DNA from: a virus
Reading direction: 5' to 3' (one strand)
IMG/VR virus record: IMGVR_UViG_3300046010_004066
Location: 1-23,789 of that record
Length of the DNA stretch: 23,789 bases
The notes under the pieces are model-generated. The model made no database searches, was not told the DNA's origin, and saw only the letters and a program-made list of their open reading frames with translations. Numbering within the stretch: position 1 is the stretch's first letter; each line of letters starts with the position of its first letter. The position numbers and the translations under genes are program-made. Of this stretch, positions 1-22,170 are shown one piece after another.

Positions 1-1504
1 AGGGTACGTCTCCTACGGTAGGAGATGATTTTCCAGTTTGTGCTACCCAATCGAAGGTAGGTGAATAGTAAGTATATGGCCATGTTATAGTAACGTCGAA
101 GTATAATTCGTAGCCAGGCTGAATGACAACAGGGAAACCATATACTGGAGTGCCTTTACCATTTTCTTTTGCTTTTACTGAAGCAATTCTCATATTAGAA
201 ACAGTAGTTGTCATTGCATTAGCCCAACTACTACCAAATCCAGGAGACAACAATTGGTCATTCGACTGAGAAACTGTAATTCCTGTAATGGTTCCACTTC
301 CAGAACCATTGTTTTCTATTTCGTATGTTAGTGTATGAGAACCGGCAGGAAACTGTAAGAATCCATCACCTAAGTTTACATACTTTTTTGTTCCGTCAGC
401 ATTAAGAGTTCTCCAATTATCGTGGCCATACTGTCCCCATATTTTTGCATTTGTTGGTGAATTTAGAGGTTCGTTCAATACTGCATTTCGACGAGTATGT
501 TCATCGTTCCAATGTACATATCCAGTATTACCATCCATTTTAGGAGGAATGATAGATTTCTTAGATGAGTCAGTATACTCAATAGAAAACTTAGCTTTAC
601 CTTCAACTACTGTTACTGAAGGTGGCATGATTTGGTCCCAAGTAGTTGTACCAAACGAACTAACAACTAATCGTGCTCTTTGTGGATCTGCCTTTGTTTT
701 ATTGAATCGGAATTTAGTTGGATTATTTTTGGATGGAGTTTCTGTTTTTTCTTTAATAACAATTGATCCATTACCTACTCTTTGTTGCCAAGTCGCCATA
801 TCACTAATGGTGCCTTTTATTGACCAATAATTTGGTTTCTCGAGAGTACCACCGGTACCTGCAACTGGAGTAGAACTACCGTCCCAGAACAGTTGAAATG
901 CAGTTGGTCTATCAAAGGCTGAATTCACATTAATTCCACATTCTCCAGTAGCAGTGGTAAAGTCAAGAACATACTCATCCACTCTAACCTTATCAACCAC
1001 GCCAGAAGAGACGCCAGAAGTAGCTGTAGAAGCAGGGGCTGTAGTAAAATCGTAACTGTCGTATCCTTCCCAACTAATCCAGTTTGTATCTTTAAATATT
1101 CCTGGTGTAAAAGTAATACAATATTTTGTACTAGGAGACAGACCACCTGCTATTTGTGATATTACTACAGTAGAACCTATATCACTTTTCATTCCCAATT
1201 GAGTAAATATTTCTACACCCGAAACGTTATTGCGTGGATCGTTACTAACCTGCCAAGCATCAACCATAGGTCCGGTTTTAGAATCTTTAGTTATTGTAAT
1301 TCTTCCAGTAAATCTCTGAATGTCTCTATTGAATACTAGTTTTATAGTATCTAAATTGTGATTAATATCAATGGAACCATTAGAAGGTTCCCATCTAATA
1401 ACTTCTATTGGTGGAGGAACTTCATTGATTGTATAAGTTGGACTATCGCCAACTGAATCACCAAGACTAGTTAATGATATTGATGCTTTGAATAGTTCTG
1501 TCAT
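1..1504 (-). CDS. Partial fibre-like structural protein with SbsA-type Ig-like domain (runs off left edge)
   Basis: An open frame of 501 codons starts at the ATG at 1504-1502 and stays open to the window edge, so the C-terminus is missing. It begins 17 bp after the stop of the giant Calx-beta gene. Only a weak ribosome site (CGAGAT) is visible, so translation may be coupled to the upstream gene. Residues about 31-156 (PIEVIRWEPSNG ... LVFNRDIQ ... YDFTT) look like an SbsA/Big_5 Ig-like domain, the same type as in the neighbouring giant protein. The rest is rich in Gly, Ser, Thr and Asn, with segments such as HTLTYEIENNGSGSGTITGI that suggest beta-structure. I recognise no catalytic motif. Position after the baseplate genes suggests a virion surface or fibre component; this is inference. 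The exact family is not recognised. Confidence 0.8.
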   Translation of the reverse strand, partial: MTELFKASISLTSLGDSVGDSPTYTINEVPPPIEVIRWEPSNGSIDINHNLDTIKLVFNRDIQRFTGRITITKDSKTGPMVDAWQVSNDPRNNVSGVEIFTQLGMKSDIGSTVVISQIAGGLSPSTKYCITFTPGIFKDTNWISWEGYDSYDFTTAPASTATSGVSSGVVDKVRVDEYVLDFTTATGECGINVNSAFDRPTAFQLFWDGSSTPVAGTGGTLEKPNYWSIKGTISDMATWQQRVGNGSIVIKEKTETPSKNNPTKFRFNKTKADPQRARLVVSSFGTTTWDQIMPPSVTVVEGKAKFSIEYTDSSKKSIIPPKMDGNTGYVHWNDEHTRRNAVLNEPLNSPTNAKIWGQYGHDNWRTLNADGTKKYVNLGDGFLQFPAGSHTLTYEIENNGSGSGTITGITVSQSNDQLLSPGFGSSWANAMTTTVSNMRIASVKAKENGKGTPVYGFPVVIQPGYELYFDVTITWPYTYYSPTFDWVAQTGKSSPTVGDVP

Positions 1505-1521
1505 TTAATTATCTCGTTATG

Positions 1522-4500
1522 TTAATCAGCGTTGATAGCAACTTGTTTGGTGAACGTACAAACGCCAGATGTTCTATTTGGTATTGTTCCTGAATTTCCA
1601 CCTTCAAAGTTAACAGTAGCTCCGAAATCGCCTGATGTTATATTAATCCCATTTAGATTGTAATATAGCGGTGTTGTATCAGATACATTAGTAGTAGTTA
1701 CTGTAAAGGTAACGATATCACCTTCAATAAATTCAGATTTATCAGCTTCAATTCTATAGGTAGGAACAGGAGAATCGACTATTGTTATGTTATTAGAAGA
1801 ACCTAAGCACTCGTTAGGTAATTTATTAGAAGTTGAGTATATTTTTAATTGGCAACTTTCATCCGGCTCTATCAATTTATCTTTAAATGTTTCAACAGTA
1901 AATAATATATCAGATCCAGTCACAGTAACAACACCTGAAGTTTGAACAAAGTCCAAATCTGATGTTGCTGACGTTCCCACACCAACAATACTCCAATATA
2001 TTTTTTGACCAATGACAATATTCTTGGTAGTCAATTTTACATCAATGTGATTGCCTTCGACCACAGCCTTCGATGCTGTTAGTATATATTCAGGCATAGG
2101 TGGTACTGCCGCCTCAACTTTGGTTTCGTATGTGGTAACCGAAGCTGTAGTGTGAAGTAAAGTTCCTGATAATGACGTTTTATAAATGTCGATAGCCCAA
2201 AGTTCAGTACCTTCAATAGTAGCATCAATATTGGTAGTAAATGTTGGAAGATCGACAGTTCCTAGTGCATTTGTAGTTACGGAACCACTAATAGAACCAG
2301 AAAGGAAATCTGTTGCATTAGTGCCGCCAGTACCTTTATCAACTACTTTCCAATATAATGTTGTGCTTAGTAAATTACTAGCTAAAGTACAAGTAGTAGT
2401 TTGACCTTCGGTCAATACCGGTGAAGTAAAACTAGATGCTACATAATCAACTACACTATTATCTCTTACGGTAACCGAAGCTGTAGTATGAAGTAAAGTT
2501 CCTGATAATGATGTTTTGTAGATTTCAATTGCCCAAAGTTCAGTACCTTCAATAGTAGCATCAGAATTAGTAGTAAATACAGGAAGAGATGCATTTCCAA
2601 GTGCATTTGTAGTTACGGTTCCAGTTAAAGATCCAGAAAGGAAATCTGTAGCATTAGTACCACCAGTACCTTTATCGACTACTTTCCAATATAGTGTTGT
2701 ACTTAACATATTACTAGTTAAAGTACAAGTAGTAGATTGACCTTCGGTCAATACCGGTGAAGTAAAACTAGATGAAACTGAGTCAACTACACTATTGTCA
2801 TATAGTGATACTGTAGCTGTAGTATGAAGTAAAGTTCCTGATAATGATGTTTTGTAGATTTCAATTGCCCAAAGTTCAGTACCTTCAATAGTTGCATCTG
2901 TATTAGTAGTAAATGGAGGAGAAATTATTGCACCACCAGAACTATTTGTAGTTACGGTTCCAGTTAAAGATCCAGACAAGAAGTCTGTTGCATTAGTGCC
3001 GCCAGTACCTTTATCGACTACTTTCCAATATAGTGTTGTGCTCAACAGATTACTAGTTAAAGTACAAGTAGTAGATTGACCTTCGGTCAAAGTATATGAA
3101 CTAAAACCAGAATTGACAAAATCTGGAACTACAGTTACTCCGTCCAAAACTGATATATTTGTTGTGGTATGAAGTAAAGTTCCTGATAGAGATGTTTTGT
3201 AGATTTCGATAGCAAATTTTTCTGTGCCTTCTACAGTTGCATCTGTATTAGTAGTAAATACAGGAAGAGATGCATTTCCAAGTGCATTTGTAGTTACGGT
3301 TCCAGTTAAAGATCCAGACAAGAAGTCTGTTGCATTGGTACCACCAGTACCTTTATCAACAACTTTCCAATATAGTGTTGTACTTAACATATTACTAGTT
3401 AAAGTACAAGTAGTAGATTGACCTTCGGTCAAAGTATATGAACTAAAACCAGAATTGACAAAGTCTGGAACTGCAGTTACTCCCTCCAAAACTGATATAT
3501 TTGTTGTGGTATGAAGTAAAGTTCCTGATAATGATGTTTTGTAGATTTCGATAGCAAATTTTTCTGTGCCTTCTACAGTTGTATCAGAATTAGTAGTAAA
3601 TATCGGTAAAGTACCTGATCCAGAACTATTTGTAGTTACGGTTCCAGTCAAAGATCCAGACAAGAAGTCTGTAGCATTAGTACCACCAGTACCTTTATCG
3701 ACTACTTTCCAATATAGTGTTGTACTTAACATATTACTAGTTAAAGTACAAGTAGTAGATTGACCTTCGGTCAAAGTATATGAATTAAATGAACTATTAA
3801 TAAAGTCTGGAACTGCAGTTACTCCGTCCAAAACTGATATTGTAGATGTAGTATGAAGTAAAGTTCCTGATAGAGATGTCTTACGAATTTCGATAGCCCA
3901 TTGTTCTGTAGTTTCTACAGTTGCATCTGTATTAGTAGTAAATGTTGGTAAGATTGCACCACCAGAACTATTTGTAGTTACGGTTCCAGTTAAAGATCCA
4001 GACAAGAAGTCTGTTGCATTGGTACCACTAGCACTAATATCAACTACTTTCCAATATAGCGTTGTGCTCAACAGATTACTAGTTAAAGTACAAGTAGTAG
4101 ATTGACCTTCTGTCAAAGTATATGAACTAAAACCAGAATTGACAAAGTCTGGTGCTAATGGAACTGCAGCATTGTATACCGATACTGTAGATGTAGTATG
4201 AAGTAAAGTTCCTGATAGAGATGTCTTACGAATTTCGATAGCCCATTGTTCTGTAGTTTCTACAGTTGCATCTGTATTAGTAGTAAATATCGGTAAAGTA
4301 CCTGATCCAGAACTATCAGTAACTACTGTTCCAGTTAAAGATCCAGACAAGAAGTCTGTTGCATTGGTACCACTAGCACTAATATCAACAACTGTCCAAT
4401 ATAAAGTAGAATTGTATTGGTTACTAGTTAAAGTACAAGTAGTAGATTGGCCTTCGGTCAAAATATATGAACTAAAACCAGAATTGACAAAGTCGGCTGC

Positions 4501-7485
4501 TGCTGATGGAACTGCAGCATTATATACTGATACTGTAGATGTAGTATGAAGTAAAGTTCCACTCGTCGAATTTTTGCGAATTTCGACAGCCCATTGTTCA
4601 GTTCCTTCTACATTGGTGTCTGTATTTGTATTAAATATTGGTAAGATTGCACCACCAGAACTATCAGTAAGCACTGTACCAGTTAAAGATCCAGAAAGGA
4701 AATCCGCTGCATTAGTACCACTAGCACCAATATCAACAACTGTCCAATATAATGTTGTATTTTTTAAATTGGTATTCAATGAACAAGTAGTAGATTGGCC
4801 TTCTGTCAAAGTATAAGAACTAAAACCAGAATTGACGAAATCTGGAGGGGTAGTAGCTGTGTCAAAAATAGCAACACTTGAAGATGTGTGTACTAAAGTT
4901 CCACTCAAACTACCAGTAAAGAAATTGATAGAGAATTTTTCTGTGCCTTCAATAAGAACGTCAGGATTAGTAGTAAATATAGGAAGAGTTGCGGATCCAG
5001 AACTATTAGTGGTAATGGTTCCAGTCAAAGTTCCAGACAAGAAGTCAGCTGAATTTACACCGCCTGTACTAGTATCGATAACACTCCAATATAATGTCGT
5101 GCTTAATAAATTACTAGTTAAAGTACAAGTAGTAGATTGGCCTTCTGTTAAAGTATTTGATGTAAAATTAGTTACAACAGTAGCAGTTGGTGGGATACTA
5201 TTTGAATCGTATATAATAACAGATCCTGATGTATGTAATAGAGTTCCAGTTAATGAATCTTTATAAAAGTTGATAGCGAATTTTTCTGTATTTTCGACTA
5301 CACCATCACTAGACATAGATATACTAGAATCAAAATTGCCATTGCTATCAGTAGTAATAGAAAACGTCACGTGGCCCGAGCCATCAGTACCTTGTATCAA
5401 ATATCCACCAAGATCTGTGGAAGTTATTCCTCCAGTGCTAACATCAATAAATTTACCATATAATTTAGTATTTGGTAAATTGGATCTAATATAGATTTGA
5501 GTAGAAGCACCTTCATTCACGGTATTATTAGAGAATGTAGTACTCACCCAATCTGGAATTGAAGCTTGAACTTCTAATGAATCAAATGTTTTCTTATAAT
5601 CTATAACATTTAAATTTGGAGAAGTGTGGACAAGATTTGTTTGGTTTGCATCTGAGTAAATCTCTACAGCAAATTTCTCAACGTCTTCTATTGTACTATC
5701 TTTATTCACGAAGAATGTCGGTAAAGTAGCAGTCCCAAGATTATTAGTAATTACTGAACCGTTCATCGGAATATCTATAAAATCAACACTGTCTATTCCA
5801 AATACATTGATTATTTTCCAATACAACTCTGTGTTCAATAGATTTGAAGAAATTGTACCAGTAGTAGAGTTTCCTTCCATGATGGAATATGCACTGAATG
5901 TAGTAGTTACATAAGGAGATATAGGAAGGTCTAATATTGTTATAGTTTCTGTAGAATGTACTGCAGCACTTCCTAAGGTTTCGTACAATTGAATATTAAA
6001 TTTTTCTGGTGATTCTGTACCATCACTACTAGTAGTATCGAGACGCACTGTATTTTGATAAGTTGAATCAACTATAAAGAATCCACTATATGAGTTTGAT
6101 GTAGATGCAAAATCACTAGTATTCAATGTAGAAGATACAGGAACGACACTGTAATAAAGTTTAGTACCAACTGCAACATTGGTCATCTTGAATATTACTG
6201 AAGCTTGAGCACCTTCATATATTGTAGTATTGACGACAGTTGAATTATAAATTGGTTTAGGTATTACAACAGGAAGTTCTGTAGTAATCTGGTAATCAGT
6301 ACTACCTGGAAATTTATTACCAGTAGAATCTCTTACATAATCAGTAGGAATGTTAACCTGATATACTGTACTTTTATCCAATGTTTTTGTTGGAGTTACT
6401 GTAAGAGTATTCCCACCTGATAACACTGCGGTAGAAGGAATAACAGTACCATTGGATTTGGTTAATGTTACTGTGCCAGCATTAGCAACTACGGTATCAT
6501 CGAATGTAAAAACAATATTAGATGAAATTGAAACTCCAGTAGCACCTTTTGATGGAGAATAATTGATAATATATGGTGCAGTTTGGTCAACGGTAATAAC
6601 CACTGGATTGACTGCTGATACTGCTTGAGGTGCAATAGAAGTTCCCGCTACTTCAGTCGTCGAGGACTTCAACATTGGATTGATAGTAACTTGATTGATT
6701 CTAGTAGATAATGTTTGTGATTGTTTAGACACAGACATACCACTAGCATAATACATGAATTCGGCAGATGTTGTTATTTCTACGCCATTATTGGTAGAAC
6801 TATCACATAATAGAAATGGTCTTGTTCCTGTATTAAATTTCTTTGAAGGAATCATGAACGTGCCAGCAATATAACCATTCTCGTCAGTAGTCAGTGTAGT
6901 GGATTTACTAGCAGAGACAACAGTATAGGTTATACCATCCCAAGAAAAGGTATTAGTAGCTTCGAGATAACCATTTGCATTAGTACTGATAATCGGAGTT
7001 TGATTAACATAAATGGTAGTACCTTTAGCAAATAACACTTCAACATTACTATTGGTTCTTGAAAAAGTTTTAGATCTGTTAGTATGAACTACTTTGTTTA
7101 ATACTATTCTATAAGCAGAATCAACATATTCTGAAACATTTACATTATCAAAGAATGCGTACAATCTAGTAAGTGGTTTTAGATGATATGCTGAAAAATA
7201 AACATTTCTTGATTGGATAGTTGTCAATAGAGAAGTATCAACTACTTTTTCTCCAAGATTAGTATTGAATGTGGATTGTGTAGACGAGAATCCTAACCCA
7301 ACTTGGGATTGAGTTGTTGATGTATTGTATGTAGCACTAGAATCTATAGTAACCACTGGAGGAACTAGAGCTGCTTGTAATGCAGCTTTAGCCAAATCTC
7401 TTGCTACCATATCTGCTGAATTGGTAGGAGTAGTTGATGTTTGGGTAGAAGTAGTACCTGGATTAGTTGCTGATGTATCTGCCAC
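1522..7485 (-). CDS. Giant 1987-aa tail/baseplate surface protein with about 14 Calx-beta-like repeats
   Basis: The start is GTG (7485-7483), supported by AAAAGGAAC seven bases upstream. Residues 1-290 hold a low-complexity Thr/Ser N-terminus, then a region (HLKPLTRLYAFFDNVNVSEY at about 101-120, later GTRPFLLCDSS) of a type I associate with structural proteins beside DUF4815 genes in marine T4-like phages. Residues about 302-402 form an SbsA/Big_5 Ig-like domain (TAPYIINYSPSKGATGVSIS). From about 405 to the end come some 14 Calx-beta-like units of about 112-115 residues. Each has a YxLTEGQSTT-type strand, LYWxVVD, DFLSG, the acidic E-G-T-E-[KLQ]-[FW] motif and SGTLLHT. Units 4-12 are nearly identical; 1-3 and 13-14 are diverged, and the last is cut short. 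Calx-beta and Ig-like folds are common in adhesins and phage surface proteins, often calcium-binding. A long flexible adhesion fibre or baseplate decoration is the likely role, by inference. Confidence 0.85.
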   Translation of the reverse strand: MADTSATNPGTTSTQTSTTPTNSADMVARDLAKAALQAALVPPVVTIDSSATYNTSTTQSQVGLGFSSTQSTFNTNLGEKVVDTSLLTTIQSRNVYFSAYHLKPLTRLYAFFDNVNVSEYVDSAYRIVLNKVVHTNRSKTFSRTNSNVEVLFAKGTTIYVNQTPIISTNANGYLEATNTFSWDGITYTVVSASKSTTLTTDENGYIAGTFMIPSKKFNTGTRPFLLCDSSTNNGVEITTSAEFMYYASGMSVSKQSQTLSTRINQVTINPMLKSSTTEVAGTSIAPQAVSAVNPVVITVDQTAPYIINYSPSKGATGVSISSNIVFTFDDTVVANAGTVTLTKSNGTVIPSTAVLSGGNTLTVTPTKTLDKSTVYQVNIPTDYVRDSTGNKFPGSTDYQITTELPVVIPKPIYNSTVVNTTIYEGAQASVIFKMTNVAVGTKLYYSVVPVSSTLNTSDFASTSNSYSGFFIVDSTYQNTVRLDTTSSDGTESPEKFNIQLYETLGSAAVHSTETITILDLPISPYVTTTFSAYSIMEGNSTTGTISSNLLNTELYWKIINVFGIDSVDFIDIPMNGSVITNNLGTATLPTFFVNKDSTIEDVEKFAVEIYSDANQTNLVHTSPNLNVIDYKKTFDSLEVQASIPDWVSTTFSNNTVNEGASTQIYIRSNLPNTKLYGKFIDVSTGGITSTDLGGYLIQGTDGSGHVTFSITTDSNGNFDSSISMSSDGVVENTEKFAINFYKDSLTGTLLHTSGSVIIYDSNSIPPTATVVTNFTSNTLTEGQSTTCTLTSNLLSTTLYWSVIDTSTGGVNSADFLSGTLTGTITTNSSGSATLPIFTTNPDVLIEGTEKFSINFFTGSLSGTLVHTSSSVAIFDTATTPPDFVNSGFSSYTLTEGQSTTCSLNTNLKNTTLYWTVVDIGASGTNAADFLSGSLTGTVLTDSSGGAILPIFNTNTDTNVEGTEQWAVEIRKNSTSGTLLHTTSTVSVYNAAVPSAAADFVNSGFSSYILTEGQSTTCTLTSNQYNSTLYWTVVDISASGTNATDFLSGSLTGTVVTDSSGSGTLPIFTTNTDATVETTEQWAIEIRKTSLSGTLLHTTSTVSVYNAAVPLAPDFVNSGFSSYTLTEGQSTTCTLTSNLLSTTLYWKVVDISASGTNATDFLSGSLTGTVTTNSSGGAILPTFTTNTDATVETTEQWAIEIRKTSLSGTLLHTTSTISVLDGVTAVPDFINSSFNSYTLTEGQSTTCTLTSNMLSTTLYWKVVDKGTGGTNATDFLSGSLTGTVTTNSSGSGTLPIFTTNSDTTVEGTEKFAIEIYKTSLSGTLLHTTTNISVLEGVTAVPDFVNSGFSSYTLTEGQSTTCTLTSNMLSTTLYWKVVDKGTGGTNATDFLSGSLTGTVTTNALGNASLPVFTTNTDATVEGTEKFAIEIYKTSLSGTLLHTTTNISVLDGVTVVPDFVNSGFSSYTLTEGQSTTCTLTSNLLSTTLYWKVVDKGTGGTNATDFLSGSLTGTVTTNSSGGAIISPPFTTNTDATIEGTELWAIEIYKTSLSGTLLHTTATVSLYDNSVVDSVSSSFTSPVLTEGQSTTCTLTSNMLSTTLYWKVVDKGTGGTNATDFLSGSLTGTVTTNALGNASLPVFTTNSDATIEGTELWAIEIYKTSLSGTLLHTTASVTVRDNSVVDYVASSFTSPVLTEGQTTTCTLASNLLSTTLYWKVVDKGTGGTNATDFLSGSISGSVTTNALGTVDLPTFTTNIDATIEGTELWAIDIYKTSLSGTLLHTTASVTTYETKVEAAVPPMPEYILTASKAVVEGNHIDVKLTTKNIVIGQKIYWSIVGVGTSATSDLDFVQTSGVVTVTGSDILFTVETFKDKLIEPDESCQLKIYSTSNKLPNECLGSSNNITIVDSPVPTYRIEADKSEFIEGDIVTFTVTTTNVSDTTPLYYNLNGINITSGDFGATVNFEGGNSGTIPNRTSGVCTFTKQVAINAD
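2112..5195 (-). repeat. Nine near-identical tandem coding repeats, period 336-348 bp
   Basis: The EGQ-encoding landmark (plus-strand ttgaccttc or ttggccttc) recurs at 2401, 2737, 3076, 3418, 3760, 4102, 4447, 4795 and 5137, giving spacings of 336, 339, 342, 342, 342, 345, 348 and 342 bp, all multiples of three. Nucleotide identity between units is visibly high, for instance around 2570-2740 and 3250-3420. Length changes keep the reading frame, so units can be lost or gained without breaking the gene. Outer boundaries are approximate to within about 15 bp. Confidence 0.93.
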
Positions 7486-7513: not shown

Positions 7514-7521
7514 TATTTATT
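7514..7521 (-). promoter_or_regulatory. Possible variant late promoter box (AATAAATA)
   Basis: The minus strand reads CTAATAAATAATT, one mismatch from the T4 late consensus TATAAATA. The box overlaps the TAA stop of the DUF4815 gene and lies 29 bp before the giant gene. The same arrangement occurs at 10667-10674. The match is short and AT-rich, and the same octamer also occurs inside coding sequence, so the call is weak. Confidence 0.3.
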
Positions 7522-10500
7522 AGTTAACAGTAACCTGCGATTTCACGCTCACATTATTTTTCAGTGCTAGGTTTGTAATACCAACGCCAGTAGTTTGCCA
7601 ATCAGACCATATTTGAGCATTGCCAGATGCTGCTTGAACTAAATGATCAAATTCACCATTTAAATTTACAGTAGCCATTGGTAGAACTGAAGTATCTGTC
7701 CAAATATCAGTAGGTGGATCCATAGCCATAATACCATTCCAATTGAATACCGCAAATGGCTGTACGGATTCTGTTTCAGATGCTGCAGTTTGTGATATAG
7801 CAGAAACTTCAGTATAATCCAACATTACTAAATCATTACTATTAACAACAGAAGTACTAGCATTGCTATCAAATTGATAAGCAAAAGAATTACTATTGAA
7901 TCCCGGTCTCAGATATCTCGATTGGTAATCGATGGCACACGTATAGTATGGATTGAATACATCACCAACGCTATGCCCAGCAAAAGAATCTACCAAAATA
8001 CCATTTTTAAACTTATCGATGCCAGGAACATCCGAAGGTATAGACTCATCTGTTGCTTGTTTTTCTAATAACGACAATGTAGTATAATATTCTAATCTCG
8101 ACACTCTTGTATCGATGGCAGCAATGTCCTTCATAGTATATCGTTTATTATCCACATATTCAACGATGATATCAGAAATACTAAATGTGTATGCTGGAAT
8201 CGTTAATACATAAAGTGTCATTGAGTCGCCAGAATCTGGAACTAATGGATACTTAGCAGGAATGCCTTTTGTAATCTCTAACTTTTTAGATGCAGTAGAT
8301 ATAATAGCCTTATCAATTCTAGGCAAATAATATTCATAATCGGTAGTTAAGGTACTGCCAAAATGAGGTTTCTTATAACTATCAAATATTAAAGAAGTTG
8401 AACTGTCAGTTCTTCTTGGTCTAAAATCCATAACATCAGTCAATCTTAATATCTCACCGGCCTTTGTTCTATAGGATTGGATATCGCTATAATCTACCAA
8501 CCCATTATAAGAATCGACAGTTAATGGTCCTGTGCCAGTATGACTATAATAATCGAACGTTATAACCAATGAAGTAATATCTGGATCTGTAGTCAAAGGT
8601 GACTTATTTGGGTTGATTAATTTAATGTAAGCGTGATCATAATAATAATCTTTTTGTCCAGTATTAAACGAGTATTTGTCTATATGATCAGTTCCGTTAT
8701 TATCAATGACGCTAGTCAAACTTATACCATCAGCTTTCAGTAATGAGATTGTAGAACTACTCATATTTGATCCAGTCACTGTCAAAGTAGAACCAGTATG
8801 GAGTACTTTATTTCTAAATGTTGATGTTGATTCACCGATAACAACATATACATCAAGTACCATATTGTAATCAACAGGAACAGTAACTACAGCAGAAGTA
8901 TCTGATGAGACATTTACTGTACCGTTTTCTAACTTGAAAACTTGACCAACGGCAGGTGGAGTACCAGAGCCAGATCCGACCGAGCGTACAGTAGCATACC
9001 ATTGAGATGATACAGTCGACGAAGATAATATTCCACTTCCTATAAAGAATTGTGTACCGCTTAAGGTCAGTGTAGCCGACGACGAACCAGCACTTCTAGC
9101 AAACGATGTGCTAGTAAATGATTTGTAATATTGGTAAGTAATATCGGTTAAATTTGTGCCACTGTTCACGTGGGTCTTTACTGGAGTATTGCCTAACTTA
9201 AATAGTTGAGTGTAATTCTGTGAGTTTTGTATAGTAACATCAGTAGTGGTAGCACCTAATATAGTAGTTTTATCATAAGATTCTGTACTGTACTGAGCAT
9301 AGAATGTCCAACTATAGGTACTTGATCCCGTTGTAACTACAAAACTTCTAGCATTGCTGATAGAAGCAGTAGCATCTAGGGCAATGTCAGTCAAGAATAA
9401 TTTGTAGGTATTAGTAGTGCCGGTATTAGTACTATCATACACAGTTCCAAACGCAGTAGCAGTACCAATTTTAGTTTTAACGTAATTAGTAGCAGAATTA
9501 GATGGTGTTATTACATTATGGATATCAATGGTGACCATCGAGTATGGCGATATCAAACCAGTAAGATTCTCAACTAGAATATACGGGCCTTTATCAATTT
9601 GAATCTGACTATTATTCAAAAACGCAGTAGTTCTTGCTTTATCTATAATGAGTGAAGTTGGACCTTCTGTAGCTACTTGATATCCCTGAACAAATGCACT
9701 ACCTGTATCTAATTTAAATACAAATTTAGATTCATCTGATGGATGGTCGATAACTTGACCAATAAATGGTTTAACTGTATAATCGCCAGATTCCTGGTAT
9801 GTTCTATCTGCTAGATGCTTTTCGAGATCGGAATATTCAGGTGCATTAACATTACCAATCATAACACCATCTCTATAGGATGCTATTAAGAAATGTTTGC
9901 TATTGGTAGATATGCCAGTACCTGCCATAGTAGTTTCTAATACCAATTCTATAGAATGTCTGTCAGCACCAGGAGCAGCATAGTTGGGTGAACCATAAGC
10001 ATTATCAAGTAATGATTCATCTTCATTATAGGAAATAATATACTCATAAGCAACCAAATAAACATCAAAGGATGCTTTGTTGGAACTATATGAACCTACA
10101 ATAATTTGATCTTCTACTCTAACGAAAGCACCATTTACAAAGTATATGCCAGACTTAATTTCGTGGAGCATAGCATCGCCGTACACAATTGTGTTAGCCG
10201 ACGATTCTGAAGTTAATGAATAGTTGGCATAGTCTTGTACAAGAATGGTAGCATTTTCTTCAATGTTACCATCAGTTACATCAGTAGTAAACAAGTAATA
10301 GTTATCATTATTAATGGCAGTATGAACTACTCGTTTTTTTACTGAACCGACATATATGATTTTATCTTTGAAGAACGTGAAGTCAGTAGTTCCGGTAAAC
10401 GAAGCAATGGCAATAGCATTTGCTTTGAGTGGGGCATGTTTACCGTCATGAACTACTGAACCATCAGTAAAAATATGTGAACCAAATCTATCAATCTGTG

Positions 10501-10630
10501 CTTGAATGATAGATTGCATTTGAGTCAATTCTCTTGCTTGAACCGCATAACCAGGTTTAAACAAGATCTTTTGGAAATGTTTGGTCTCATCGAAATCATC
10601 ATAATATGGTTCGACGTTCAGATTAATCAT
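7520..10630 (-). CDS. DUF4815 family virion structural protein (baseplate/fibre adaptor)
   Basis: This 1036-residue protein opens with the recognisable DUF4815 signature: MINLNVEPYYDDFD, then FKPGYAVQARELTQMQ and a helix ending in RFGSHIFTDGSVV (residues 1-60). Near residues 870-905 it carries the second conserved block, DKFKNGILVDSFAGHSVGDV and SRYLRP. This follows a helical stretch (RVSRLEYYTTLSLLEKQA). The middle is a long Ser/Thr-rich beta region. DUF4815 proteins are regularly found in the late region of marine T4-like phages next to gp8 and are virion components, but no precise function is established to my knowledge. The conserved N-terminus and placement between gp8 and the giant repeat protein suggest an adaptor that joins the wedge periphery to fibres (inference). 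The ATG at 10630 has AAAAGGA upstream. Confidence 0.85.
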   Translation of the reverse strand: MINLNVEPYYDDFDETKHFQKILFKPGYAVQARELTQMQSIIQAQIDRFGSHIFTDGSVVHDGKHAPLKANAIAIASFTGTTDFTFFKDKIIYVGSVKKRVVHTAINNDNYYLFTTDVTDGNIEENATILVQDYANYSLTSESSANTIVYGDAMLHEIKSGIYFVNGAFVRVEDQIIVGSYSSNKASFDVYLVAYEYIISYNEDESLLDNAYGSPNYAAPGADRHSIELVLETTMAGTGISTNSKHFLIASYRDGVMIGNVNAPEYSDLEKHLADRTYQESGDYTVKPFIGQVIDHPSDESKFVFKLDTGSAFVQGYQVATEGPTSLIIDKARTTAFLNNSQIQIDKGPYILVENLTGLISPYSMVTIDIHNVITPSNSATNYVKTKIGTATAFGTVYDSTNTGTTNTYKLFLTDIALDATASISNARSFVVTTGSSTYSWTFYAQYSTESYDKTTILGATTTDVTIQNSQNYTQLFKLGNTPVKTHVNSGTNLTDITYQYYKSFTSTSFARSAGSSSATLTLSGTQFFIGSGILSSSTVSSQWYATVRSVGSGSGTPPAVGQVFKLENGTVNVSSDTSAVVTVPVDYNMVLDVYVVIGESTSTFRNKVLHTGSTLTVTGSNMSSSTISLLKADGISLTSVIDNNGTDHIDKYSFNTGQKDYYYDHAYIKLINPNKSPLTTDPDITSLVITFDYYSHTGTGPLTVDSYNGLVDYSDIQSYRTKAGEILRLTDVMDFRPRRTDSSTSLIFDSYKKPHFGSTLTTDYEYYLPRIDKAIISTASKKLEITKGIPAKYPLVPDSGDSMTLYVLTIPAYTFSISDIIVEYVDNKRYTMKDIAAIDTRVSRLEYYTTLSLLEKQATDESIPSDVPGIDKFKNGILVDSFAGHSVGDVFNPYYTCAIDYQSRYLRPGFNSNSFAYQFDSNASTSVVNSNDLVMLDYTEVSAISQTAASETESVQPFAVFNWNGIMAMDPPTDIWTDTSVLPMATVNLNGEFDHLVQAASGNAQIWSDWQTTGVGITNLALKNNVSVKSQVTVN

Positions 10631-14804: not shown

Positions 14805-16610
14805 TTATCTACTTGCAGTAAAGGTATGAACTAGTCCTGAATTTGCGCTTTCTGGTATTGCAGTTACTGTCAATAAACTTGGATCAATATTAACGACATG
14901 ATCCCTAACCGATACTACATCGTTGGATTGTAATTTGAAGGTTAATGCCATATAATTACTGGCTAATCTAGTAATGTGAAAATTAGTCAATGATATTTTT
15001 CCAATGGAATAATCGACTGTTCCTTGATTAGTATTAGTGACTACAGGCTTCAATGATATTGGATCAATATAGTATCTTTGAATAATTCCGTATCCGTCAT
15101 CTTTCAGATACTGTACATTTGTTGAATCACCAAATACATAGAATCCATTTGAAGTTACTGCATCTTCAGGAACTCCCGCACTGTAAATTGGATTATCAAT
15201 ATGGAATGTATAGTTAGTATTAACATTGAATTTTACTGACAAATTTCTATCAACAACTAAGGTAGTAATATTACCTGTTATAGCACTGTCTGAATTATCA
15301 ATCGCAGCAATCAATTTAGAATATCTTAATACTGAATCAAATTGTCTTAGATTTGCGGTATTATAATCGAGTATAGCATTAGTAGCAATAACAGACAATT
15401 CATTAGCAGTTTTTGATGTATTATTAGGATCGTAGTATATTGCCGTAGTTAATCGAATATTCAAATAGAATGGATCCACGAACTTTGGTGTAATAGTTAC
15501 CATCTTTCTGGATTTAAGAATATCGTTTACTATAACGTCTTTTTCAGTAGAAGTCAATACTGAATTTGATTTAGGGAGAATCGATATGAATACACTACCG
15601 TACACTGGAGGAAGATTATCTTCTCCGCCCCATACATTTATAGAGGCAATATTAGGAAATCTAGCAAGCAGTAGTGATCTATAATCTTCTGCAGTTACTG
15701 CTCTATTAGTAGAATTGAATAATCTTGGTGCATTGAACTTGATATCATCAATCGATTCCATATCAGAACCGCCTTGAGATTGATATAAGGTAACAATAGT
15801 AGCATTAGTACTAAGATTTGGCGATGTGAATAATCTAGCACCATTTGCAGTAGCTTTCTTAGATACGAAGTAGTTGATAACTACGATATTGCCAGGCGAT
15901 ACAGATTTGCCTATTCTATCATTACCAAATTGCACCTCATATTTTCCGCCCTCAATTTCCTTTAGAAAGAATACTGTATCTGTAGCAGTAACATTCAATA
16001 TGTCAGTTGATCTAGTATATTTCACCTTGGTAGTAGAATTCAAACTATCATAAACGTCAACTGATATTGTACTAATATCCACATTAGTATTAGAAATGGT
16101 ATAAGTCGTATTATCTGATACTGTATAAGTTTGAGTTAATGGTGTCCCTTCAGTTATAACAAGATCACTAAATTTATAGATTCCATTTACGCTAGTGGCT
16201 ACACTAGGTTCCATATTATAGAATGAGAAATTAGAACCATTAACTGTAGTATTGAATGCAGTAAGTGATGGAATCGAGACTATGCCAGGATTGCCAGATA
16301 CATTAGTAAGAGTAATATTAACCACTGCTTTAGCAGAAGTTGCTGATTTTGGAAGGTATCCAAGTTCAAATGCTTTAGAGACAACACTATTTCTTATAAC
16401 AGCAGAATCGAGAAAAGATTCATTGACTGCTAAGTTGAGATACAGATTGTTGTAGTGAGTATTATATGCTAAGACATCCAACAACAAGGATAAACCAGAA
16501 CCTTCAAAATTATAATCTGATAAGTCTGTTTGACCTTGTAGAAATGTCTTTAAATTAGACTTGATTTTATCAAAATCTAAATCTTGAGTGGTTATCTGTT
16601 TGTTTGCCAC
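14805..16610 (-). CDS. gp6: gp6 baseplate wedge protein (P2 gpJ family)
   Basis: The 601-residue protein matches the T4 gp6 / baseplate J family; T4 gp6 has 660 residues. Diagnostic is the N-terminal block DFDKIKSNLKTFLQ (13-26), the FEGSGLSLLLDVLAYNTHYN stretch (about 35-54), then LAVNESFLDSAVIRNSVV and AFELGYLPKSATSAKA. In the middle, GGSDMESIDDIKFNAPRLFN and NRAVTAEDYRSLLLARFPNI are the usual J-family signature before the C-terminal domains. Gp6 forms the iris-like ring that joins the wedges and opens on contraction. The start is GTG, supported by AAGGA; no in-frame ATG occurs for more than 100 codons after it. It lies between gp25 and the gp7-like gene, its partners in the wedge core. Confidence 0.95.
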   Translation of the reverse strand: MANKQITTQDLDFDKIKSNLKTFLQGQTDLSDYNFEGSGLSLLLDVLAYNTHYNNLYLNLAVNESFLDSAVIRNSVVSKAFELGYLPKSATSAKAVVNITLTNVSGNPGIVSIPSLTAFNTTVNGSNFSFYNMEPSVATSVNGIYKFSDLVITEGTPLTQTYTVSDNTTYTISNTNVDISTISVDVYDSLNSTTKVKYTRSTDILNVTATDTVFFLKEIEGGKYEVQFGNDRIGKSVSPGNIVVINYFVSKKATANGARLFTSPNLSTNATIVTLYQSQGGSDMESIDDIKFNAPRLFNSTNRAVTAEDYRSLLLARFPNIASINVWGGEDNLPPVYGSVFISILPKSNSVLTSTEKDVIVNDILKSRKMVTITPKFVDPFYLNIRLTTAIYYDPNNTSKTANELSVIATNAILDYNTANLRQFDSVLRYSKLIAAIDNSDSAITGNITTLVVDRNLSVKFNVNTNYTFHIDNPIYSAGVPEDAVTSNGFYVFGDSTNVQYLKDDGYGIIQRYYIDPISLKPVVTNTNQGTVDYSIGKISLTNFHITRLASNYMALTFKLQSNDVVSVRDHVVNIDPSLLTVTAIPESANSGLVHTFTASR

Positions 16611-17669: not shown

Positions 17670-20558
17670 TTAATCCTTTGCAAAGAACTTAAATAAACCT
17701 ACTTGAGTTCCTGGTTTACCAGATGATGTTACTGGAGTATTATTAATCATAGTAAATGCACGTTTCTGATTACCTTGGGTTGAATATGAAACATGAATCC
17801 AATTAGAAGCACCAGCATTTTGATATTCAAATATCAATTGATTATAAGGTAATATTTTTTCTAGTTTCATCACCAAAGTATACATTTCTGTAATAGATCG
17901 TTTTGGATGCAATTGGAAATCACATGCACGACCTTTGTTATGATCTGAACCATCACCCGAACCTGGAACATTACCAGGATTACGCAAACCGGAATTTATT
18001 TTCCAAGTGCCATTACTACTCATATCAGTACAGGGTCCTAATAGATCGTATATTGGTTCAAGGACATTTTCACATAATGCTGCCAAATTAGCAACCAATT
18101 CTTGTTTAGTGTACATGCGAGTAGGTGTTCCAGCTTTTTCACTTTTACCACCAGGCAGTGCCTGATCTCGTAGCACATTCTTATCCTTAATGAGCATTCC
18201 AAGAGTAAAGTGTTTGGATAGTTGGTAACTCATTGGGAAATCAGTTTTAGAATCAATTTCAGCTTTCTTATCAGAAGATAATCCTTTTGATGAATCCGAA
18301 CCACCTGACAATGCGGGTGCATCTTCTCTTGCCCCACTATCATTATTGATTGTATTAACTGAAGGTTGTCTATTTGACAATTCATCCTTTGCTTCTTCTG
18401 TATTATTTTGAGCAGCAATTGCTTTAGCACCTTTTACGCTAGAAGCATCTTCTTCAGTATCATATCTCATTTCTGATATTCTATCTGGCGATGGTAAATT
18501 ATCAATGATTGCACTGTTGGAGATTGCTATTGGAGGTGGTACCAATCTATTTCTAGTAGAACCAGCAGCTTGCAATGATGTTTTATTTTCAACTGGAGCA
18601 TCGGCATATTTTTTATCATATATGTCTGGTTTAGAACTACCTAACATCCCTTTAAGTGTATCTGATAAAGGCAAGTTATTAAGAATAGAATCTACTAATG
18701 AATCGTTTAATGTATTTGGATTATAGTTTCCAGCTGGATTCAGTGTTGTGTCTACCAAGACATGTTCTTCATCTCTGTCTTTAATTTCTTCACCTTTGAA
18801 ATCAACTGGTTTCTTTTTCTCTCCAAGTTTATCAAGTGCTTTTATTGCTGTTGGTGATTCGCTACCATTTAGACTAATTTTCTTACCCTTTCCAACAAGA
18901 TTGCCTGTAGCATTAAGTGTAAGTGTTTCACTAGTATCCGATTGTAATGTTTTAGATTTGATTTCAATTGCTTCTGCAATATCTAACTTGAATGATTTGG
19001 ATTTAATTTGGTAAGCACCATCTGTTTCTATTTTAATATCGCCTGAAAGTTTCATAAGAGTTTCAGCGGTAGATTGAGTATCTCCACCTTCCATACTGAT
19101 ATTCTTTTGAGTTTTCAATTTCAATGCATCATTGGATTCGAGAGACATTGTACCAACAGTACGAGTATTGAATGTCTTACCAACTTCAAGATTATAGTTA
19201 CCTTCAACAAGAACATTCATGTCACCACCGACAGCAATATTCAAGTCTTTAGCAACACCAATATTAGCATCATTATGAAGAATAATATCACTAGTACCAT
19301 TTACTTCAACGGTAGCATCTCCGCCACATAACAGATTGGTATTACCATTGATTGTAATATTACAACATCCATTAACAAATATGTTACCATTATGTTCTAC
19401 GATATAATACCCATCGCCAATAATATGATTGACTTGAGTACCATTAGCATCAATTTCAATGAATGTACCTTTCTTATGATACAAGTTTACTCGCTCACCA
19501 GCAGGACTATCATCAAATTCAAGAACATGACCACTTTCAGATTCAAACACTTTATTGTATGGATAGACAGAACTAAATCCTGCTCTAGGTTGTTCGTAAC
19601 TTCCTCCATTAGGAGTTGGTATTGATTTATGTCTAGTCTGGTCTTTATATTCTACATTTGTACCTTTAAGAATTCCACGAGCAAGACGATTGGTATCTGG
19701 CTCATTCATGTAATCCCTTAAAGGATACTTACCTTCTGGATCGGTAAAACCATTCTTATCAAAATTCTCTTCTCTTGATTCAGTGTACGCTTCTTTCTTA
19801 TGAGGAGGAGCAGTAGCAATTTCTTTAGGAGTCTTCTGAATAGTAGATGTAGCTGGATCTTTATCTGATGCCGGAGCAGGAGCAGGTTTACCACCTAAAA
19901 AGTATTCATTATATCTTCTCTTTAATGGCCATCTTTTATCATCACCGCCAACTGCACTTAATGCAATATCCATAAATCCAGGATTGTGTTGTACAGTTTT
20001 CCAATCCTTTAGTTTCCATTTCAAAAATGCTACAACATACTTTGCATTTGTAAGAATTGCCTCATCACTTTCACCTTCAAGTAATTCTGGATTTGCATAT
20101 AAATCTATTGTTGGATCATTTATCCTTTTTGACATTGCTTTATAAGCATCTGAAAAAGTCAGTTGGATATAACCTCGACCATAGTAATTACCTTCAGATG
20201 CTGGTTTATGTTTTCTAGTACCATACAACCAACCAAAATATTCTACAGCAGTATTTCCATTCTTCTTGCTAAATTTACTGTATTTTTCTGCATCTGCTTC
20301 AGATACATTACTAAACGTACCACTTAGTAGTTTTTGTTTACTATGTGGCCAGAATTCCCCAATACATTGCCAAGACGATTCACCGCCAGCAATAGCCAAC
20401 ATAGCACATTGAGCATATTTTGAAGTAAATCCTCCAGCAATCATTTGTTCTTTGATTGCCTTAATACCTTTCATAGCAATCTTGGCTTTGTGTCCAGTCA
20501 GTTTTGCTTCAGGTGGCGGAGTATCTGGTATAGGTGCATCTACTATTGGATCTGCCAT
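17670..20558 (-). CDS. Tail spike needle: GH19-like muramidase + gp5 beta-helix + M15 peptidase
   Basis: The 962-residue protein has three parts. Residues about 28-222 look like a GH19 chitinase/lysozyme domain: AIAGGESSW with the candidate catalytic Glu at 60, and YYGRGYIQLT at 125-134. Residues about 327-570 match the gp5 C-terminal spike. They open with FSSVYPYNKVFESESGHVLE and FDDSPAGERV, typical of T4-like gp5, then run into short VxG-type beta-helix repeats (IFVNG, ITING, VEVNG, LVEG). After a low-complexity linker (about 580-775), residues about 776-935 resemble zinc peptidase M15: SGLR at 856-859, SDHNKGRACDF with H873 and D880, and WIHVSY with H922. The protein would act in the periplasm on glycan strands and peptide crosslinks. 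It lacks the gp5 OB domain, which is the preceding gene. The M15 domain at the C-terminus, after the helix, is unusual. Confidence 0.9.
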   Translation of the reverse strand: MADPIVDAPIPDTPPPEAKLTGHKAKIAMKGIKAIKEQMIAGGFTSKYAQCAMLAIAGGESSWQCIGEFWPHSKQKLLSGTFSNVSEADAEKYSKFSKKNGNTAVEYFGWLYGTRKHKPASEGNYYGRGYIQLTFSDAYKAMSKRINDPTIDLYANPELLEGESDEAILTNAKYVVAFLKWKLKDWKTVQHNPGFMDIALSAVGGDDKRWPLKRRYNEYFLGGKPAPAPASDKDPATSTIQKTPKEIATAPPHKKEAYTESREENFDKNGFTDPEGKYPLRDYMNEPDTNRLARGILKGTNVEYKDQTRHKSIPTPNGGSYEQPRAGFSSVYPYNKVFESESGHVLEFDDSPAGERVNLYHKKGTFIEIDANGTQVNHIIGDGYYIVEHNGNIFVNGCCNITINGNTNLLCGGDATVEVNGTSDIILHNDANIGVAKDLNIAVGGDMNVLVEGNYNLEVGKTFNTRTVGTMSLESNDALKLKTQKNISMEGGDTQSTAETLMKLSGDIKIETDGAYQIKSKSFKLDIAEAIEIKSKTLQSDTSETLTLNATGNLVGKGKKISLNGSESPTAIKALDKLGEKKKPVDFKGEEIKDRDEEHVLVDTTLNPAGNYNPNTLNDSLVDSILNNLPLSDTLKGMLGSSKPDIYDKKYADAPVENKTSLQAAGSTRNRLVPPPIAISNSAIIDNLPSPDRISEMRYDTEEDASSVKGAKAIAAQNNTEEAKDELSNRQPSVNTINNDSGAREDAPALSGGSDSSKGLSSDKKAEIDSKTDFPMSYQLSKHFTLGMLIKDKNVLRDQALPGGKSEKAGTPTRMYTKQELVANLAALCENVLEPIYDLLGPCTDMSSNGTWKINSGLRNPGNVPGSGDGSDHNKGRACDFQLHPKRSITEMYTLVMKLEKILPYNQLIFEYQNAGASNWIHVSYSTQGNQKRAFTMINNTPVTSSGKPGTQVGLFKFFAKD

Positions 20559-20566
20559 AATGTATC

Positions 20567-21256
20567 CTAAAAATTAGTTTCGAAATAAGAAGAAATTGAA
20601 TCTATAGTATCAAATTCTTTCGGTAATGCAAATGGAGTATATTGTTCTACTGTATATTTTTCTTGATTCAGTAAAGTGACTTCATATAGATTGGTGTATT
20701 CGTTTATGAGTGCAGTGCCAATAATCGTACTATCTTCCATATTAACAATATTATAAGTAGTAACAGGACCATTAGATGTCTGAACTGTAACAGCTTTTAT
20801 TTGGTATTTGTCACCTCGTTTCTGTTCAGTACCCGAATCAGCATTGATTTCGTCAGCAATCTGAGATACTAAATCAGTAACGATATCTCCAGTAGAACTA
20901 ATAAGATCACCATCTTCGTCGGTCGATACAACACCATTAGTAACTTCAGCAATTAATGCAGCAGATTGAGTCATTGGAATACCACCAATAGTACCAAGCA
21001 TAATTGGTTGCTGTTGATATTCATCCAGGAATATAATAATAACCCAAGTACCTTGAACTACTCCAGTAGGTGACCAACCAATACCATTCATCGACGCACT
21101 AGTAATTGGTCCCATAGGATGAGCCCATGGTAAATCTTTTGTTGGCAACAATACCTTATCATGAGTATGCAATCCAACAATTCTTACTTGGCATCTGCCT
21201 AGCATAAGTGGATCTGCTCTCGATTCAACACATCCAGTATAAAAAACTTGGCTCAT
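20567..21256 (-). CDS. gp5 N-terminal OB-fold domain as a separate hub protein
   Basis: Residues 1-95 match the gp5 N-terminal OB domain of T4-like phages: FYTGCVESRADPLMLGRCQV, RIVGLHTHDK, LPTKDLPWAHPMGPITSASM, GIGWSPTGVVQGTWVIIIF and QQPIMLGTIGGIP. In T4 this domain forms a collar under the gp27 ring and is fused to lysozyme and beta-helix. Here the gene stops at residue 229. The tail (96-229) has an acidic stretch (VSTDEDGDLI), an Asp/Ser-rich helix and a beta segment (KYQIKAVTVQTSNGPVTTYN), with no lysozyme or helix. The stop codon overlaps the ribosome site of the spike gene, so the two products are probably co-translated and assemble together. This gene has the strongest ribosome site in the window (GGAGG). 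Confidence 0.9.
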   Translation of the reverse strand: MSQVFYTGCVESRADPLMLGRCQVRIVGLHTHDKVLLPTKDLPWAHPMGPITSASMNGIGWSPTGVVQGTWVIIIFLDEYQQQPIMLGTIGGIPMTQSAALIAEVTNGVVSTDEDGDLISSTGDIVTDLVSQIADEINADSGTEQKRGDKYQIKAVTVQTSNGPVTTYNIVNMEDSTIIGTALINEYTNLYEVTLLNQEKYTVEQYTPFALPKEFDTIDSISSYFETNF

Positions 21257-21260
21257 TTAG

Positions 21261-21265
21261 CCTCC
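21261..21265 (-). promoter_or_regulatory. Strong Shine-Dalgarno (GGAGG) of the OB-fold hub gene
   Basis: The minus strand reads ATTATGGAGGCTAAATG. GGAGG lies four bases before the ATG at 21256 and is a longer match to the anti-Shine-Dalgarno than the AGGA-type sites of the other genes. It would let this gene be translated well even though the upstream neighbour is a homing endonuclease. Confidence 0.7.
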
Positions 21266-21298
21266 ATAATAACATTAGTAGAATCTACAACTATCAAA

Positions 21299-22081
21299 CT
21301 AGTAATACATTTTAAACTCTGGATAGTATTTGGATAAATTAGGTTTATCATATGTCTTTTTAGTCTCAATTATAGATAAGAATTTGATTTTAAGAATTCC
21401 TTTAGTAGAAGCAGATTGTTTTGCTTTTGATTCTTCTGACCGAGGTCCATTAGAAATACCTTTCTTTGAAGCAGATATTTTATTTTTAGTTTCTTCTAAG
21501 TGAGGACTTCTTTTCTTACCAGTCATTGTAGCAGATCTTTTAGCATTAGATTCAATAGATTGTATTTTACCCATAAGAGCAACAGAAATTTTAGCACCAA
21601 ATCCTTCTGGTTTAGGAATACCTTTTAGTGCATTAGATATATTTACTTTGCGTTCTTCTGTACATGGACCAGTTTTCTTTCCTTTCTTTGCTTTAGATAC
21701 ATTTGGCTGTTTCTTTCCTTTCTTTACCATTGATATTTTTGCTTTAGTTTCTTCAGAAAGAGGTCCAAATGATCCGCCATCTAATCCATTTTCTAGTTTT
21801 AGATTTGCCCATTCTTTAGATTCTATTATATTATATTCAATAGAAAAATTAAGTGCAAATTCAGATATTGATGTATTGAAATATGGTTCCGATATCCATA
21901 AAGTTTCAATATATTCTTTGCCATATTTCTTTATATGTCTTTTCCAATATTTGCCGGATCCGTTATATTTGTACGGATCGACTTTTGAAGTTTTGCCAAA
22001 ATATTTCATTCCTGTAATAGAATGTTGTTTGATATAGAGATAAGTTGGTACGATTGGCTGATATATAGTTTGGCTGGTCAT
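21299..22081 (-). CDS. Free-standing GIY-YIG-like homing endonuclease with NUMOD3 repeats
   Basis: Residues 13-100 look like a divergent GIY-YIG nuclease domain as found in T4-like phage endonucleases. YLYIKQHSITGMKYFGKTSK carries the paired YLY and YFG elements, followed by DPYKYNGSGKYWKRHIKKYG and a candidate acidic residue in the SIEYNII segment (E82). Residues about 106-230 hold six or seven short repeats of the NUMOD3 type, for example GPLSEETKAKISMVKKGKK and GPRSEESKAKQSASTKGI, which are DNA-binding modules of homing enzymes. It is Lys-rich, unlike its neighbours. It lies between two conserved virion genes, 42 bp before the OB-fold gene, which is typical of a mobile gene that targets a conserved site nearby. 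Target and activity are unknown. The ATG has a weak GGAA-type ribosome site. Confidence 0.87.
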   Translation of the reverse strand: MTSQTIYQPIVPTYLYIKQHSITGMKYFGKTSKVDPYKYNGSGKYWKRHIKKYGKEYIETLWISEPYFNTSISEFALNFSIEYNIIESKEWANLKLENGLDGGSFGPLSEETKAKISMVKKGKKQPNVSKAKKGKKTGPCTEERKVNISNALKGIPKPEGFGAKISVALMGKIQSIESNAKRSATMTGKKRSPHLEETKNKISASKKGISNGPRSEESKAKQSASTKGILKIKFLSIIETKKTYDKPNLSKYYPEFKMYY

Positions 22082-22116
22082 GATAATTCCTATAATTGTC
22101 TTGAAGAATGATTAGT

Positions 22117-22147
22117 GCTACTGGATGCTTGTAACATCGCGAGTAGC
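22117..22147 (-). promoter_or_regulatory. Hairpin in the leader of the homing endonuclease transcript
   Basis: On the minus strand GCTACT (22147-22142) pairs with AGTAGC (22122-22117), and inside it GATG (22138-22135) pairs with CATC (22127-22124) around a 7-nt loop, with a small 3x1 internal loop. It lies between the late promoter box and the start codon, about 35 bases before the ATG. It has no U-run and does not cover the ribosome site, so it is more likely a leader structure than a terminator. Confidence 0.45.
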
Positions 22148-22162
22148 TTTTTGTACTATATG

Positions 22163-22170
22163 TATTTATA
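22163..22170 (-). promoter_or_regulatory. T4-type late promoter (exact TATAAATA)
   Basis: The minus strand reads CTTTTATAAATACATA, with an exact match to the T4 late promoter octamer recognised by the gp55 late sigma factor with gp33 and gp45. It sits in the largest non-coding gap of the window, 13 bp past the hub gene stop, and 81 bp before the homing endonuclease ATG. It would drive the homing gene and then the OB-fold and spike genes. Confidence 0.7.

Follow-up and report, generated by a model that had tools for sequence, protein, structure and literature searches.

A tandem array of Calx-beta-like Ig units between two Big_5 domains of a VrlC-type phage baseplate protein

We found that an array of 14 Calx-beta-like Ig units encoded by a T4-like phage is, judging from sequence comparison, a domain insertion between two Big_5 domains of a baseplate-type protein, at a site already enlarged in its clade. 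Our main reading, to which we give a probability of about 55%, is that the array is a tandemly grown reach or adhesion arm inserted into a VrlC-type baseplate protein and kept under selection. The window (the whole stretch of DNA analysed, a viral record 23,789 bases long) is rich in T4-type baseplate genes, including several wedge subunits, a hub/lysozyme and a PAAR protein, and such genes surround the array ORF (ORF1). Since a wedge protein (14805-16610) has its nearest matches in Pelagibacter phage HTVC008M and the Methylophilales phages Melnitz (~40%), the phage is probably pelagimyophage-like, and we infer a T4-like source akin to pelagimyophages and cyanomyophages. Elsewhere in the window, the gp5-type hub/lysozyme was divided over two ORFs of 229 and 962 aa (17670-22170, minus strand), with a homing-endonuclease-like ORF (21299-22081, phrog_314) just upstream, preceded by TATAAATA at 22163-22170. 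As a late promoter, TATAAATA gave 2 matches against 5.8 expected.

ORF1 (7485..1522; 1987 aa, GTG start) carries an N-domain, a Big_5 domain and the array; it and the window features described below are on the minus strand. Directly upstream lies a 1036-aa DUF4815 protein (7520..10630; PF16075 E 4.7e-59, phrog_358 E 6e-198), the predicted counterpart of the N-terminal half of a VrlC-type baseplate protein. The conserved N-domain (ORF1 aa 40-300, 6586..7368), homologous to the middle of VrlC, is followed by Big_5 domain 1, of the SbsA-type Ig-like kind (aa 300-402, 6280..6588; PF13205 E 7.5e-15). A unit profile gave 14 significant units over 6264-1525, 13 of them full length (~114 aa each) and the last one truncated. 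Three divergent units (units 1-3, 5194..6264) are followed by nine that apparently multiplied more recently (units 4-12, 2107..5193) and were also detected by Tandem Repeats Finder (2146-5167, period 342 nt, 8.8 copies, score 2784), then by the divergent unit 13 (1774..2106) and by unit 14 (1525..1773), which a stop codon cuts in or near the loop preceding the conserved 'E..E.F' strand.

These results bear out an earlier note on this DNA as to the roughly 14 tandem units and their order, an SbsA-type Ig-like domain ahead of them, a phage-specific N-terminus (the N-domain has homologues in 149 ORFs of the fetched loci) and the position directly after DUF4815. The extent it gave, 1522-6273, fits the location of the array but not the protein, whose ORF starts at 7485 and which goes on in another frame in ORF2 (1504..2). 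What it overlooked is the apparent internal insertion in a VrlC-type protein, the second Big_5 domain in ORF2 and the frame break in unit 14. Several family matches to the repeats were discounted: those to Pfam AGS_C and DUF7578 were sums of weak repeat matches in which no single stretch passed, and NCBIfam HK97 gp10 and PHROGs 21840, 21808 and 28642 were likewise sums of weak matches. The HK97 gp10 and AGS_C scores on 1522-7485 are a trap for automatic annotation.

The case for an insertion comes from close relatives. In L004 (with L005 and L006), L010 and L008, the DUF4815 ORF is followed by one ORF of 1478-1702 aa. ORF1 aa 5-405 and the beginning of the L004 protein had 63% identity, and ORF2 aa 36-491 were 36% identical to L004 residues 426-850 (212 bits). 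From these collinear matches, ORF1 and ORF2 together are equivalent to the initial portion of the L004 protein, the array standing between its two Big_5 domains, and because the N-domain and ORF2 are collinear with a single array-free ORF, we interpret the array as inserted. ORF2 encodes at least 501 aa and runs off the contig, with a possible end of unit 14, Big_5 domain 2 (aa 32-155, PF13205 E 4.8e-6) and a region common to L004 and L010. Both Big_5 matches pass the PF13205 cut-off of 23.6 bits, with 56 bits in ORF1 and 27.7 in ORF2. The remainder of an L004-like protein, including the conserved DPLAQ region, would lie past the contig end.

The N-domain was 63% identical to that of L004 and 27% identical to S-CRM01 g9 and P-SSM7 VrlC (for S-CRM01, 26.9% over 264 columns, E 3e-15). 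Its model (pLDDT 82.4) has two ~30-residue strands enclosing a small beta domain. No PDB entry matched it significantly (the lowest E was 0.021 and the highest Z 6.8, with rmsd 2.5 over 78 residues), a result that leaves room for an unlisted fold. Both ends of the L004 protein match the C-terminal half of S-CRM01 g9 and P-SSM7 VrlC, which lack the Big_5 region, as do most cyanophage and other homologues. Because DUF4815 sits in a separate upstream ORF in the window, as in L004, L008 and L010, ORF1 and ORF2 appear homologous to the C-terminal half of VrlC and not to the whole protein. Big_5 was observed in 3 of 32 relatives scanned, chosen from 73 non-redundant ORFs and related ones. The DPLAQ motif was not found in 51 of 118 ORFs; in the 67 that have it along with the N-domain, the two were separated by a median of 28 aa. 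Six separations were above 150 aa, four of them in the L004, L005, L010, L008 clade (623, 625, 625 and 836 aa) and two in L175 and L115 (229 and 289 aa). Units were found in none of the 149 other N-domain ORFs, of which 125 were distinct and 118 had a complete 3' end, and by this survey the window holds the only N-domain ORF with an array so far.

One study describes VrlC as an integral part of the two-layered baseplates of pelagimyophages and cyanomyophages, common to all 35 of its genomes, and places a hypervariable host recognition cluster always between VrlC and gp14 (PMC7029224). The VriC protein of Ackermannviridae is described as suspected of forming downward prongs (PMC11721090), and 311 VriC spectra are given for virions of phage Sajous1 (PMC10892097). 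By title, no paper on DUF4815 in the open-licence literature dealt with phage baseplates.

The break at 1505..1524 consists of the ORF1 stop TAA (1524-1522), a weak GAG, and a TAA right before the ORF2 ATG in its frame. There is no overlap between the open stretches of the two frames, ORF1 being closed before ORF2 begins, so no one insertion or deletion accounts for the break. Ahead of ORF2 a GAG stands alone at the usual place; most window genes have AGGA or GGA. The peptide following the ATG, TELFKASI, resembles TEKFAIEI, the expected next strand of the unit, and within the first 34 residues of ORF2 the profile aligns residues 3-23 with positions 85-106, where they would be expected. The match was weak, ranking 122nd by score in the 1806 sequences reported for the fragment and its shuffled copies, and the start of ORF2 is possibly the end of unit 14. 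The junction 30-mer was observed in no other viral contig, and no independent contig covering it was found.

AlphaFold2 modelled two units (57 rows; pLDDT 93.9, pTM 0.60) as two Ig-like sandwiches, in line with the Ig-like fold proposed earlier. Foldseek against the PDB placed NCX1 calcium-binding domains at ranks 2-5 and 7 (E 1.3e-7) and CALX 3rb7 at rank 35, and also returned antibodies and complement domains. Superposed as two domains, the model and CALX 3rb7 gave a VIA Z of 9.3 (rmsd 8.1 over 187 residues), with complement and macroglobulin domains slightly above (Z 10.3 vs 9.3). The predicted unit fold resembles the NCX1/CALX calcium-binding domains, yet not exclusively Calx-beta. Among the top fold matches of the two-unit model was the hub/lysozyme protein of cyanophage S-CAM3 (BFVD A0A1D8KIR0), which suggests that Ig units may also sit in gp5.

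The Calx-beta family profile PF03160 (cut-off 27 bits) had no match at E<=1 for ORF1 or for any of the 14 units. A unit-profile search returned 15 viral loci, including L087, a 4447-aa phage ORF (3500-16843) that contains 33 Ig units, has a glycine-rich end and showed no match among phage records for its first 533 aa. Window and L087 unit profiles matched at 99.5% probability. The whole L087 array scored 51.7 bits with PF03160, no single stretch passing the cut-off, and 7 of 32 L087 units matched at E<=0.1 (best 4.1e-4). Against the L087 profile, CALX 3rb7 gave E 0.01 with DF, D..E..E.F and the final D in register, and PDB entry 9ncf gave E 5.9e-8, with most of the match in the first half of each unit. 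Alignment to the CALX fragment (hhalign) reached 6% probability with the combined phage units and 15% with the L087 units; the Big_5 profile comparison gave 0.2%, and CALX was absent among matches of the combined-unit profile at E<=0.1. Because the fold and the L087 link are present but the sequence and profile matches are absent or weak, we describe the units as Calx-beta-like and refrain from assigning them to PF03160. The name 'Calx-beta' given earlier thus finds backing in the predicted fold, the conserved acidic positions and the homologous phage arrays, but not in the family profile search.

Positions E17 and D50 were acidic in all 14 units, and D78, E82 and E85 were kept in all 13 whole units, the last unit position being D in nine, N in two and E in two of the 13; because the end of unit 14 aligns uncertainly, this unit was not counted for D78, E82, E85 or the final D. 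Through the L087 profile, the near-invariant DF, D..E..E.F and last D of the window units align with CALX at positions that we take to be calcium ligands. We consider calcium stiffening of the arm plausible.

Units 4-12 were 54-89% identical among themselves, with 73-89% mutual identity in units 7-11 and a drop outward from there, while units 1-3, 13 and 14 were only 19-46% identical to anything. The inner nine look like the products of later tandem duplication, and with a dN/dS of 0.21-0.56 across the 36 pairs of units 4-12, growth of the array fits tandem duplication under purifying selection. A scan of genome contigs for arrays that might be a bacterial source gave 11 pattern matches and no relative. 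At L096 (1763-5883) three neighbouring ORFs carry one unit each, as though one array had been distributed among several genes.

In the mechanism we propose, an array-free stage with two adjacent Big_5 domains, as in the ORF of the close relatives, would have come first, followed by the entry of 14 Calx-beta-like Ig units between them and later duplication of the inner nine. The N-domain would be held in the baseplate and the units would form a beaded arm, which at ~4 nm per Ig domain might measure some 50 nm if stretched. Such an arm could set the reach and give many weak contacts with cell-surface glycans before receptor binding, and the acidic cluster, with one residue adjoining each linker, may bind calcium and stiffen it. 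With the stop in unit 14, the arm would have a free far end, and what remains would be a second chain that may be lost or may join up again through the split unit. A role in reach or weak binding is suggested by the baseplate and virion reports on VrlC/VriC and by likeness to the bacterial adhesin BapP, in which 7 of 12 Ig-like repeats match Calx-beta and which is described as calcium-dependent (PMC12153261).

Calcium may also play no part, with the units a plain Ig-like spacer that lengthens or shields a baseplate prong. The fold matching many Ig-like families about equally and the missing Calx-beta HMM match speak for such a spacer, and the near-invariant acidic residues at CALX-aligned places speak against it; we regard it as possible, with the odds clearly on the other side. 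An improbable alternative is that the array grew by recombination and ended in a disrupted gene with no function, or that solely the N-terminal part of ORF1 matters. The stop inside unit 14, the other frame of ORF2 with just a weak GAG before its ATG, and the lack of an array in 149 N-domain ORFs would agree with this, whereas the dN/dS of units 4-12, the 501 open codons that ORF2 keeps with 36% identity to L004, and the report of VrlC in all 35 genomes of one study (PMC7029224) speak against it.

The contig is a metagenome assembly, in which the array length or the break at 1505-1524 could be wrong. Exact repeats of up to 107 nt occur within the array and the junction 30-mer has no second viral contig, but the units are distinct enough to place, the divergent end units join coherently to conserved flanks, and one indel cannot produce the break; we think an artefact quite improbable. 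Our boldest version of the arm, that it is a calcium-set rope whose reach is altered by tandem copying of units and in which ORF1 ends and ORF2 starts in one surface loop, forming a working split-domain joint at the break in unit 14, is a long shot; if true, two chains would click together or let go mid-arm.

If the inserted-arm reading is right, a conserved baseplate component beside the host recognition region acquired adhesin-like repeats through the nested insertion of an array, and reach or adhesion may evolve by copy number, not by tail-fibre swapping alone. The analysis also links proteins scattered across cyanophages and other phages to a single Ig-unit family with up to 33 units per chain. 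In the open-licence literature we found no paper joining Calx-beta, bacteriophage and tail, and by title none of the Calx-beta/phage papers listed was on phage tails.

Among known systems, the Calx-beta proteins (PF03160; NCX1/CALX CBD1-2 and the adhesins BapP and LapA) share with the window units the Ig-like sandwich and the pattern EG, DF, D..E..E.F and final D, but the window units lack a PF03160 match and their carrier is a phage baseplate-type protein. The arrays of L087 (33 units), L088/L089 (12-13), Sf-FP1 (3) and P-SSM2 Q58ME0 have units homologous to those of the window (Q58ME0 fits the two-unit model with rmsd 1.5 over 113 columns at 32% identity) but sit in other carrier proteins. 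DUF4815 is a separate gene in L004, L008, L010 and the window and is fused to the C-terminal half in cyanophages and most other relatives. L004, L008 and L010 share with the window this split after DUF4815, the N-domain (45-63% to ORF1 aa 1-412) and two Big_5 stretches, and differ in a single C-half ORF without an array. The VrlC/VriC-type DUF4815 proteins of cyanophages, pelagimyophages and Ackermannviridae, like the window version, follow a gp8-like gene and have a DUF4815 N-terminal half and a homologous middle domain, whereas the window version is divided into DUF4815, ORF1 and ORF2, with two Big_5 domains and 14 Ig units apparently inserted.
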